This document shows positions 60 through 4,357 of a stretch of DNA of 64,000 nucleotides, piece by piece; positions within the stretch are counted from its first letter, which is position 1, and each line of letters starts with the position of its first letter. Made by a program: the position numbers and the translations under genes. This stretch comes from Arthrobacter celericrescens (lineage in GTDB: Bacteria > Actinomycetota > Actinomycetes > Actinomycetales > Micrococcaceae), in the NCBI RefSeq assembly GCF_003614925.1, contig NZ_QYLP01000023.1:1-64000 (forward strand), read 5' to 3'. A model generated the notes under the pieces. It was not told the origin of the DNA. It saw only the letters and a program-made list of their open reading frames with translations, and did no database searches.

Positions 60-260
60 CTACTGCTTGCCGTACTTCTTGTGCACGGCCTGCTTGCTGA
101 CGCCGAGGCACAAGGCAATCGCCTCCCACGACAGCCCGGCCTGCCGGGCAGCCCGCACCAGCCCGGCCTCGGCCCTGCCGACTTCCTTCTGCAGTTCAGC
201 CACGGCGTAGAGCGCCTCCGCCGGGCCCATCCCGTCCATCGATCCCACCAGGGTCTTCAT
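60..260 (-). CDS. Small helix-turn-helix DNA-binding protein
   Basis: A 66-residue protein that is little more than one helix-turn-helix. Residues 36-62 (AARQAGLSWEAIALCLGVSK and following) resemble small actinobacterial HTH proteins of the sigma-region-4/HTH_29 type. Residues 12-34 form a charged helix that may dimerise. In-frame ATGs exist at 275 and 287, but the ATG at 260 is chosen because GGAGG lies 8 bases before it and a -10 hexamer at 283-288 predicts a transcript start near 276, which excludes the earlier ATGs. Two palindromes upstream overlap its promoter, so autoregulation is likely. A membrane-protein gene diverges from it. The target genes are unknown. Confidence 0.8.
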   Translation of the reverse strand: MKTLVGSMDGMGPAEALYAVAELQKEVGRAEAGLVRAARQAGLSWEAIALCLGVSKQAVHKKYGKQ

Positions 261-278
261 GCGGTCCACCTCCATGGC

Positions 279-322
279 GTCAACCATAGTTGACGAGCAC
301 GACGGCGTCAACGAAAGTTGAC
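279..322. promoter_or_regulatory. Double palindromic operator over the HTH gene promoter
   Basis: Two copies of the same inverted repeat occur here: GTCAACCATAGTTGAC at 279-294 and GTCAACGAAAGTTGAC at 307-322. Both have the form GTCAAC-N4-GTTGAC and their centres are 28 bp apart. On the minus strand a promoter is built into them. The -35 TTGACG (306-311) lies in the distal copy, the spacer is exactly 17 bp, and the -10 TATGGT (283-288) lies in the proximal copy. A dimer on either site would block RNA polymerase. The HTH protein encoded just downstream is the obvious candidate ligand (inference). Confidence 0.75.
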
Positions 323-1345: not shown

Positions 1346-4300
1346 CTACTGGCCGTAGAACTGCCGTTCGAAAACGGCCCGGGTGCGCCGGCTCATCCGC
1401 AGATAGTCTTCCTCGAAGACCGCCGCCTGGCCCGGCGCGTAGCCGCACCAGCGGGCCACCGCCTCCAGATCCCGGCGCGACGCCGGCAGCAGGTCGGAGG
1501 CACGGCCCGTGCAGATCACGTTGGCCGAACGGATCCGGCTTGCCATGCGCCAGGTGTCGCGCAGCAGTTGGCCGTCCTTCTTACTGATCAGCTCCAGCTC
1601 GGCGATGGCGTCGAGCGCCTGCATGGTGGAGGTGGTCCGCAGGGCGGGGTGCTTACCTGCGTGCTGCAGCTGCAGGAGCTGGACGAGCCACTCGACGTCG
1701 CTCAGGCCGCCGCGGCCGAGCTTCACATGGCGGGCGGGATCGGCCCCGCGGGGCAGCCGCTCCGATTCCACACGGGCCTTGATCCGGCGGATCTCCCGCA
1801 GCTCCGTGTCCTCAAGCACCTCCGGGTACCGGATCGGATCGACAAGGTCGACGAAGTCGGCGGCGAGGCCGTCGTCGCCCGCCATCGGCTGGGCCCGCAG
1901 AAGGGCCTGGGCCTCCCAGACCAGGGACCAGCGCCGGTAGTACTCGGCGTAGGAATCCAGGGAGCGCACCATCGCCCCGTTCTTGCCCTCGGGCCGCAGA
2001 TCGGCGTCGACCGTGAGGACCCGTTCGGCCTTGATCGCCGGTTTCAACGGCTGGGTCAGCAGGCTGGACACCTGGGCGACAATCGCCAGCGCCTGCTTCT
2101 GGGCTTCTTCGTCGCCCGCGCCGGGCTGTGCGCGGTGGACGTACATGACGTCGGCGTCGGAACCGTAGCCGATTTCCCGGCCGCCCTGGCGTCCCATGGC
2201 CACCACCAGCACGTGGGTCTTGAGCGGGCCGCCGTCGGAGACAATGTTCTCGGCGACATGCAGGGCACCGAGGACCGCGGCGCGGTCCGTGTCGGCCAGG
2301 GCCGAGCCCACTTCGTCCTGGTCGAGCAGCCCGGAGCTGTCCGCGATGGCGATCCGGAGGATTTCGCGGCGCCGGATGAGCCGGATGAGGCGCATGGCGC
2401 TTTCCGGGTCGGCGTGCCGGGACATCTTCGACTGGATTTCCTGCCACTGCCCCTCGAAGGACACCGGCTTGAGCTCCTTGTCGTTGCCCAGCCAGGCTAC
2501 CGATTCCGGGGAAACTTCCAGCAGGTCGGCAATCAGCCGGGAGTTGGACAGCACGTGGCACAGCCGTTCGGCCGCCGCCTGCGAATCGCGCAGCATTCCC
2601 AGGTACCAGTGCGTGGTGCCGAGGGCCTCGCTGACCCGGCGGAAGGCGAGCAGGCCGGCGTCGGGATCCACACCCTCGGCGAGCCAGCCGAGCAGGATCG
2701 GCAGCAGCTGGCGCTGCAAGGCCGCCCGGCGGCTGACGCCGGCAGTGAGTGCCTCGATGTGCCGCATGGCGCCCCGCGGATCGCGGTAGCCGAGCGCCGC
2801 CAGGCGCCCCTGCGCCGCTTCCGGGCTGAGCCGGGCATCCTCGCTGCTGAGGCTTGCCGCGGTGTTGAGCAGCGGGCGGTAGAAAATCCGTTCGTGCAGC
2901 TCACGGACGGAGCGTTTGGTCTTCTGCCAGGTGCCGATCAGGGCATCCGGGTGCGGGCGTTCCGAGGAGAACGGCCCGAGCACTGCCTTGGCCAGGAAGC
3001 GCTGGGCGTCCTCGCTGGTGGGCATCAGGTGGGTGCGGCGCAGCTGGAAGAGCTGGATCCGGTGTTCCAGGAGCCGCAGGTACCGGTAGGCGCTGTCGAA
3101 GGCCGCGGCGTCGGCGCGGCCGATGTAGCCGCCGGCGGAAAGCGCGGCGATGGCCGACGTCGTGTCCTTGCTGCGCAGCGTCTCGTCCGACTTCCCGTGG
3201 ACGAGCTGGAGCAGCTGGACGGTGAACTCGACGTCGCGCAGGCCGCCCGGGCCGAGCTTGATCTGGCGCTGTTCCTCGGCGGGCGCGATGTTGTCGGTGA
3301 CCCGGCGGCGCATCGCCTGGACGGATTCGACGAAGCCTTCACGGCCCGACGACGCCCAGACCAGCGGCTGCACGGCCTCCTCGTAGCGGGCGCCGAGTTC
3401 CCTGTCGCCGGCGATGGTGCGGGCCTTCAGGAGCGCCTGGAACTCCCAGCTGTCCGCCCAGCGGGCGTAGTAGCTCAGGTGCGAGGGCAGGGTCCGCACC
3501 AGCGGCCCGGACTTGCCTTCGGGGCGCAGGTTCGCGTCGACTTCCCAGAGGCCGGGTTCGGGCGCGGTGGAGGAAATCGCCCGCGAAATGCCGCTCGCCA
3601 GGGCCGTGCCGATGGTGGCGGCGTGGGCGTCTTCCAGCCCTTGCGCCTCGATCACATAGATGACGTCGACGTCGGAAATGTAGTTCAGCTCGCGGGCGCC
3701 GCATTTGCCCATGCCGATCACGGCCAGCCTGACGGCCGCGACGTCTGCCGGGTCGAAGGCGGCGGCCACCTCGGCCCGGGACACGGCGAGGGCGGCCTCG
3801 ATCGCGGCTCCCGCGAGGTCGGCAAGCTCGGCCCCGACGATCGGCATGGCGTCCTGCGGGCTGGCCGCGCACAGGTCCCTGATGGCCAGTTCAGTCAGGC
3901 CCCGCCGGTACGCGGTACGCAGGGCAGCGTAGGCCGCGGGGCCCGTGAGACCAGCCACCGGCCGCGGGGAGGCGGCGTCGGCGCGGACCGAGGCGAGCAG
4001 GCGTGCCCGGAGCACGGCCGGATCCTGTGCCTGCGGTTCCGGGCTGACCCGCTCGTCGAACACGTCGAGGTGCTCGGGGTGCCGGATCAGGAACTCGCCC
4101 AGGGCCTCGGAAGCGCCGAGGAGCCGGTACAGCGGTTCGCTGCGGTCCGGATCCGCGGCCGCGAGCTCCCGCAGGGCCGGGTGCTTCTCGATCAGCCGTA
4201 CCAGGGTCTGCAGTGCCGTATCGGGGCTGGCGCTCAAGTGCAGGCCCGTGAACAGGGTCTCCTGGTCGATGCCGTCGAGTTCGCGGGCGCCGAGGAAGCG

Positions 4301-4357
4301 CTCCCCTTTGTCAAGATCGCTGAAACCGGCTGAAATGAGCCGGCGTGCCAGGCTCAT
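1346..4357 (-). CDS. glnE: Bifunctional glutamine synthetase adenylyltransferase / adenylyl-removing enzyme
   Basis: A 1003-residue protein, full length for the family. It attaches AMP to a tyrosine of glutamine synthetase and removes it by phosphorolysis, according to nitrogen status. Two nucleotidyltransferase halves are visible: GMGKCGARELNYISDVDVIY at about residue 215 and AMGRQGGREIGYGSDADVMY at about 715. Each carries the G-x-x-D-x-D metal-binding pattern, and each half has a following helical domain. Its start lies 9 bases after the stop of the glutamine synthetase gene, so the two are cotranscribed. The same pairing occurs in other Actinobacteria. The gene converges on the Nudix hydrolase. 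Confidence 0.96.
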   Translation of the reverse strand: MSLARRLISAGFSDLDKGERFLGARELDGIDQETLFTGLHLSASPDTALQTLVRLIEKHPALRELAAADPDRSEPLYRLLGASEALGEFLIRHPEHLDVFDERVSPEPQAQDPAVLRARLLASVRADAASPRPVAGLTGPAAYAALRTAYRRGLTELAIRDLCAASPQDAMPIVGAELADLAGAAIEAALAVSRAEVAAAFDPADVAAVRLAVIGMGKCGARELNYISDVDVIYVIEAQGLEDAHAATIGTALASGISRAISSTAPEPGLWEVDANLRPEGKSGPLVRTLPSHLSYYARWADSWEFQALLKARTIAGDRELGARYEEAVQPLVWASSGREGFVESVQAMRRRVTDNIAPAEEQRQIKLGPGGLRDVEFTVQLLQLVHGKSDETLRSKDTTSAIAALSAGGYIGRADAAAFDSAYRYLRLLEHRIQLFQLRRTHLMPTSEDAQRFLAKAVLGPFSSERPHPDALIGTWQKTKRSVRELHERIFYRPLLNTAASLSSEDARLSPEAAQGRLAALGYRDPRGAMRHIEALTAGVSRRAALQRQLLPILLGWLAEGVDPDAGLLAFRRVSEALGTTHWYLGMLRDSQAAAERLCHVLSNSRLIADLLEVSPESVAWLGNDKELKPVSFEGQWQEIQSKMSRHADPESAMRLIRLIRRREILRIAIADSSGLLDQDEVGSALADTDRAAVLGALHVAENIVSDGGPLKTHVLVVAMGRQGGREIGYGSDADVMYVHRAQPGAGDEEAQKQALAIVAQVSSLLTQPLKPAIKAERVLTVDADLRPEGKNGAMVRSLDSYAEYYRRWSLVWEAQALLRAQPMAGDDGLAADFVDLVDPIRYPEVLEDTELREIRRIKARVESERLPRGADPARHVKLGRGGLSDVEWLVQLLQLQHAGKHPALRTTSTMQALDAIAELELISKKDGQLLRDTWRMASRIRSANVICTGRASDLLPASRRDLEAVARWCGYAPGQAAVFEEDYLRMSRRTRAVFERQFYGQ

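Follow-up and report, generated by a model that had tools for sequence, protein, structure and literature searches.

Twin GTCAAC-N4-GTTGAC operators mark a stand-alone ClpC2-type HTH gene of Arthrobacter celericrescens as a probable autorepressor

Mycobacterial ClpC2 represses its own gene at CGTCAAC-n5-GTTGACG, a site that is present twice in many organisms and lies over the -35 and -10 elements of a gene whose start is probably leaderless (PMC10030653). Cyclomarin targets ClpC1, and ClpC2 protects mycobacteria by sensing the drug and derepressing itself; binding of cyclomarin A to the Clp_N domain of ClpC2 lifts the repression (PMC10030653). The crystal structures of ClpC2 cover residues 4-72 and 94-252, and the authors assigned DNA binding to the Clp_N domain. 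This assignment was backed by the R185A/R189A exchange in Clp_N, which lowers DNA binding and whose counterpart in M. smegmatis results in 2.0-fold expression of clpC2 (PMC10030653). Loss of R57 breaks dimerisation and derepresses clpC2, with 4.6-fold expression in R57A vs 2.0-fold in the Clp_N mutant (PMC10030653). Within the HTH region, ClpC2 is resembled by the antitoxin RelI, according to PMC13284704.

The window analyzed here is a stretch of 64,000 nucleotides from A. celericrescens, and its base 1 is the end of the contig (C101). Two exact copies of GTCAAC-N4-GTTGAC are located at 279-294 (GTCAACCATAGTTGAC) and 307-322 (GTCAACGAAAGTTGAC), with centers 28 bp apart. An earlier note on this DNA had described them as two identical palindromes, which holds for the 6-bp arms; the 4-bp spacers differ, being CATA in the proximal copy (279-294) and GAAA in the distal one (307-322). 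In the 4,457,007-base assembly, the exact pattern occurs at these two places only, and the reversed-pattern control at none. The sole promoter-like site within positions 1-1000 (mean of 0.0 in shuffled sequences) is sigma-70-like, lies on the minus strand and overlaps both operator copies: the -35 hexamer TTGACG (311-306) belongs to the distal copy and, after a 17-bp spacer, the -10 hexamer TATGGT (288-283) to the proximal copy, exactly as the earlier note had placed them. On the plus strand, no promoter was found within the same 1000 positions. The promoter faces a small HTH gene at 60-275 on the minus strand. Divergent from this gene, a small membrane protein is encoded at 399-725 on the plus strand, 77-105 bp away from the operator sites; it was not found beside the operator in relatives. 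The minus-strand gene at 1346-4357, which we take to be glnE, is a recurrent upstream neighbor of HTH genes that stand alone. A GC-rich hairpin at 1-25, at the contig end, has a T-rich plus-strand tail that fits the terminator of a convergent gene. Such a gene would be, for example, glnA1, which occupies this position in convergent orientation in L005, L008 and other relatives.

Protein matches at E up to 1e-3 were found in 64 of the 149 genomes of the host's family. The twin pattern GTCAAS-N4-STTGAC is present at 14 places in 14 of these genomes (control: 0), and all 14 are directly upstream of an HTH-protein match. Absence of the palindromes upstream of orthologues had been set beforehand as the refuting outcome; they are there. 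Searched singly, the exact palindrome has 53 occurrences in the 149 genomes. Of these, 36 precede an HTH match (down to E 9.2e-8) by no more than 200 bp; the 17 sites away from such matches are near the control count of 14. The frames flanking these 17 sites share no common gene, and two of the sites fall in one shared locus of one genus. At three of the 17, from three different genomes (L108, L110, and L116, site at 2001 in each), the single palindrome precedes a GSLFSGYGGLDL motif in a methyltransferase-like frame by 245-275 bp.

We rejected a genome-wide regulon, as places with up to two mismatches are no commoner in the window's genome than for the reversed control (68 vs 65); the genome-wide search proposed in the earlier note thus yielded neither a second exact location nor an excess of near sites. 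Overall, the data point to the HTH gene's own promoter as the operator's only target. A phage origin was also rejected, since none of 50,697 phage records matched the window protein at E 0.01, as was a plasmid origin, with matches on 14 plasmid records that are all under 60% identity.

A scan of contigs of named genomes returned at least 44 loci, and a profile search across the phylum gave matches in 104 of 396 genomes. Part of these profile and protein matches were read as loci, and 200 of the 231 loci have a family match; removing 21 duplicates and one locus without a readable helix left 178 distinct upstream regions. Sites were picked on half-site bases 1-4 only. A twin-site score of at least 13 of 16 was reached by 144 of the 178 upstream regions vs 0 of 178 after mononucleotide shuffling. 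The picking fixes the spacer at 4, and spacers were counted separately: when lengths of 2-7 were allowed, the 178 regions yielded 269 perfect GTCA..TGAC sites, of which 266 had a spacer of 4. Among the 34 regions scoring under 13, 21 score 12 and 13 score lower, including Nonomuraea loci without a site. The window protein belongs to this stand-alone N4 group, showing Q57, A/S/T58, and H60 together with a twin N4 operator over its own promoter. The comparison supports the compact autorepression circuit suggested in the earlier note, since most of the relatives examined have the twin operator together with the HTH gene.

The genes downstream of the HTH gene differ among the 178 loci. A Clp_N gene follows in 90, an ABC exporter gene in 13 and neither in 74; the remaining locus, that of the window, is truncated where the contig stops. 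Pfam verified Clp_N (PF02861) in three examples and ABC_membrane (PF00664) in one. The twin site (score of at least 13) is present at 78/90 Clp_N loci, 13/13 ABC loci, and 52/74 loci without either partner, and for 73 of these 74 there is no Clp_N match anywhere in the DNA examined around them. The 13 exporter loci, found mainly in Microbacteriaceae, possibly represent a self-regulated efflux cassette.

Several loci deviate from the common arrangement. In L196, L209, L217, L221, L224, L228 and similar ones, mostly with TRQ helices, AGCAAC replaces GTCAAC on one side; in this subgroup bases 1-2 are seemingly read by something other than residues 58 and 61. Some solo relatives (L052, L053, L054, L123, L066, L017) have the proximal palindrome alone. 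Nonomuraea and a few others (L030, L033, L034, L035, L027, L031, L044) carry the helix SKQAVHKKYG, and the GTCAAC site is missing upstream. In L198, which has one of the two N5 sites seen among stand-alone loci, a single frame seemingly spans the HTH and Clp_N parts; this may represent an intermediate or a broken fusion.

The position of the proximal operator also bears on the start of the gene. The frame contains an early ATG (275-273), 3 nt past the proximal palindrome and 7 nt past the -10 hexamer, whereas the start chosen in the earlier note is a GGAGG-led ATG at 260, giving a product of 66 aa; both frames end at the stop codon 62-60. In 132 of the 144 twin-site loci, an in-frame start codon is found 0-5 nt beyond the proximal operator. 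TA is among the first three spacer bases in 135/144 proximal vs 15/144 distal copies, so that, judging from these sequences, the proximal copy nearly always holds the -10 element and the HTH gene looks leaderless, like the published clpC2. On these grounds we favor position 275 for the window gene as well: a leaderless gene with a 71-residue product (MEVDRMKTLVG...) is more likely than a start at 260, which was probably misplaced. Four relatives (L018, L019, L055, and L062) lack the early ATG and must start at the later one, so either start is possible for the window gene.

The 66-residue frame matches two Pfam models weakly, below their cut-offs. AlphaFold gave a confident model of this version (pLDDT 86.7), for which a Foldseek search against the PDB returned nothing under E 0.001 (best E 1.7). 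The HTH gene is under purifying selection, with dN/dS of 0.02-0.19 in 15 of 16 codon-compared pairs and saturation in the sixteenth.

The operator bases vary together with residues of the HTH protein. For the covariation analysis of 66 residues against 6 bases, the proteins were grouped into 29 clusters at 70% identity, helix 3 being excluded, and 150 cluster permutations were used. Among all residue-base pairs, 58-base 5 has the top z-score (10.1) and 61-base 6 the second (7.4), followed by residue 1 with base 4 (5.8), a pair with a tiny information content of 0.021 bits. By raw mutual information, the pair 61-base 6 ranks first and 58-base 5 only ninth, i.e., the latter leads after permutation correction alone. 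None of 1000 cluster permutations equaled either 58-base 5 or 61-base 6. Counting the commonest base by locus, A58 goes with A5 in 128/130 loci and S/T58 with G5 in 13/14, while K/R61 is accompanied by C6 (102/117), Q/E61 by G6 (11/16), and other residues at 61 by T6 (9/11). The exceptions at position 61 are K/R with T (12), G (2), or A (1), Q/E with T (3) or C (2), and other residues with C (1) or G (1); some picked distal half-sites are poor and appear among these exceptions. On a tree built without helix 3, residue 58 changed four times and residue 61 nine times.

Searching 394 genomes with operator patterns alone, we found twins of the GTCAG type at 3 places, each next to a family member that has R61 and either S or T at position 58. 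GTCAAG twins occur at 7 places: one neighbors a divergent member carrying A58 and Q61, and six have no family member beside them. All 4 family members found through the operator thus carry the expected residues, which is a small number. Because six GTCAAG twins do not neighbor a family member, operator patterns alone are no proof of the HTH family. These six loci (L291-L296) have exact GTCAAG-N4-CTTGAC twins, and five of them contain weak HTH matches, presumably XRE-type, which perhaps represent a second family whose operator is similar. With the twin beside the gene in most relatives examined and two covarying residues, the comparison supports the earlier note's view of the operator as a fully specified target of the HTH protein.

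The same helix appears to be shared with ClpC2. The window-family profile matches 8ADA over residues 39-72 (E 0.0085), and the 8ADA chain ends there, immediately ahead of the recognition helix. In another genome, a fused ClpC2 reads SMGV-SKQAAQKRF, with the recognition helix from residue 73, inside the gap between the published crystals. Of 296 genomes searched for fused ClpC2, 125 had matches, although many of these matches are ClpC itself; the best 30 were read as loci and all 30 carry [ST][KR]QAAQKRF and two spacer-5 sites. ClpC2, with the equivalents of A58 and K61 and the half-site GTCAAC, agrees with the residue-base code. Its R57 aligns with R39 of the window protein (Arg in 118/144 relatives), but D46, with which R57 forms a salt bridge, corresponds to a glycine, G28, at a position that is acidic in 103/144 relatives. 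Because the HTH is homologous both to RelI (9SDC) and to the ClpC2 N-terminus (8ADA), and binding of ClpC2 to the same half-site has been published (PMC10030653), the term "uncharacterised family" used in the earlier note is too strong.

Stand-alone and fused systems can be encoded by one genome. Four genomes (G254, G308, G340, and G481) contain a stand-alone system at N4 and a fused one at N5 with half-sites that are the same or nearly so, which suggests that spacer length may insulate the two from each other. In the window's genome, no fused ClpC2 was found at E 1e-20. Clp_N matches in this genome number six, in three frames, two of which are ClpC-like and one of which has 901 residues. The second ClpC-like gene (L235, contig C70) contains, as assembled, an unread stretch (X) as well as a shift of frame in the AAA region.

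Taken together, the window gene very probably encodes a stand-alone, sensor-less ClpC2-type HTH autorepressor with operators over its own, probably leaderless, promoter. The dimer would pair by the long helix 13-40, with helices 45-52 and 56-64 forming the HTH, and one dimer would bind each GTCAAC-N4-GTTGAC; in every half-site, base 5 (A) would be read by A58 and base 6 (C) by K61. Protein bound over -35 and -10 would exclude RNA polymerase and keep its own level low. Repression might be relieved by protein turnover or by contact with the cell's ClpC. The sensor seems to be absent in the window's lineage, where the HTH protein would act alone, often encoded beside glnE or glnA1, with no other recognizable target. 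One point speaks against an autorepressor: if it has no second target, its benefit is unexplained.

The operator might instead be read by a Clp_N-type domain or another trans regulator, as proposed for ClpC2, with the small HTH protein providing dimerization only. The effects of R185A/R189A on DNA binding and, in M. smegmatis, on clpC2 expression favor such a reader (PMC10030653). However, the twin operator is retained at 52 of the 74 loci with neither a Clp_N nor an ABC gene downstream, the window's genome lacks a fused ClpC2 and has its Clp_N matches in ClpC-like or 901-residue frames, and the stronger derepression in the published work came from the HTH half, in R57A (PMC10030653). Since residues 58 and 61 of the helix covary with the bases and the operator-only searches agree, the HTH rather than Clp_N should read the operator, and we regard a Clp_N-type reader as quite improbable. 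It is highly improbable that the HTH gene is what remains of an HTH-Clp_N operon in decay. The partner is absent in the window's lineage and present in 90 of 178 relatives, as decay would predict, but operator and promoter are intact and the low dN/dS values argue against it.

Two further explanations assign a second target to the repressor. Its twin site lies close enough to the start of the membrane gene at 399 for a divergent two-gene regulon, as the earlier note had suggested. This is unlikely, as the sole promoter detected is directed toward the HTH gene and none of the other loci compared contains a match to the membrane protein. The neighboring genes raise the possibility of a nitrogen-linked regulator of glnA1 or glnE: one or both of these genes are in the examined flanks of 23 of the 74 partnerless loci, and glnE lies beside the window gene, compared with 0/90 Clp_N and 0/13 ABC loci. 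On the other hand, no site with up to two mismatches is near glnE or glnA in the window, and the assembly offers neither further exact sites nor a near-site excess, which makes this link improbable as well.

If the window protein is an autorepressor, this also has consequences for ClpC2. Neither of the two crystals on which the assignment of the DNA-binding domain of ClpC2 was based includes the HTH recognition helix, and the solo HTH proteins provide a natural experiment that parts the reader from the sensor. We consider it likely that ClpC2-type repressors, including mycobacterial ClpC2, read their operator by the N-terminal HTH, with the helix starting near residue 73 in the crystal gap, that the equivalents of residues 58 and 61 set bases 5 and 6, that N4 and N5 spacing insulates stand-alone and fused systems within one genome, and that the role of Clp_N is indirect; the window's lineage would then represent a bare reading head with a single target. 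With the residue-base code, the domain assignment in ClpC2 is testable by two point mutations, and the code points to a small repressor family with predictable operators. In the literature searched (titles and abstract openings), we found no description of the stand-alone HTH operator or of the residue-base code.

Among known systems, the mycobacteriophage immunity repressor 7R6R is a weak profile match over the HTH (E 0.02) and, at 203 residues, far larger than the window protein. The best PDB match of the family profile is the antitoxin RelI (Rv2664; 9SDC; E 1.4e-9), also a small HTH protein. RelI is encoded after the toxin RelS, which its C-terminal helices bind (PMC13284704), whereas no toxin gene precedes the window gene; directly upstream are its own promoter and the divergent membrane gene. 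The two-gene loci of Streptomyces, Actinokineospora, Pseudonocardia, and others share a similar HTH size and the N4 twin operator with the window but have a Clp_N gene downstream, which the window's lineage lacks. The HTH-ABC exporter loci likewise combine the same HTH family with a twin N4 operator (13/13) and differ by the transporter gene downstream. ClpC2 (Rv2667 and its M. smegmatis homologue) has an HTH in its N-terminal region, the GTCAAC half-site, the twin site over -35/-10 and the probably leaderless start in common with the window gene, and its autoregulation is published (PMC10030653). The window protein shares the N-terminal HTH homology, but its frame ends after the HTH without the ligand-binding Clp_N domain, and its operator has a spacer of 4 bp instead of the 5 bp found in all 30 fused loci read. 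With Clp_N absent and the spacer at 4, identity with ClpC2 itself is not supported, whereas the comparison of these sequences lends good support to a protein that would work like ClpC2.
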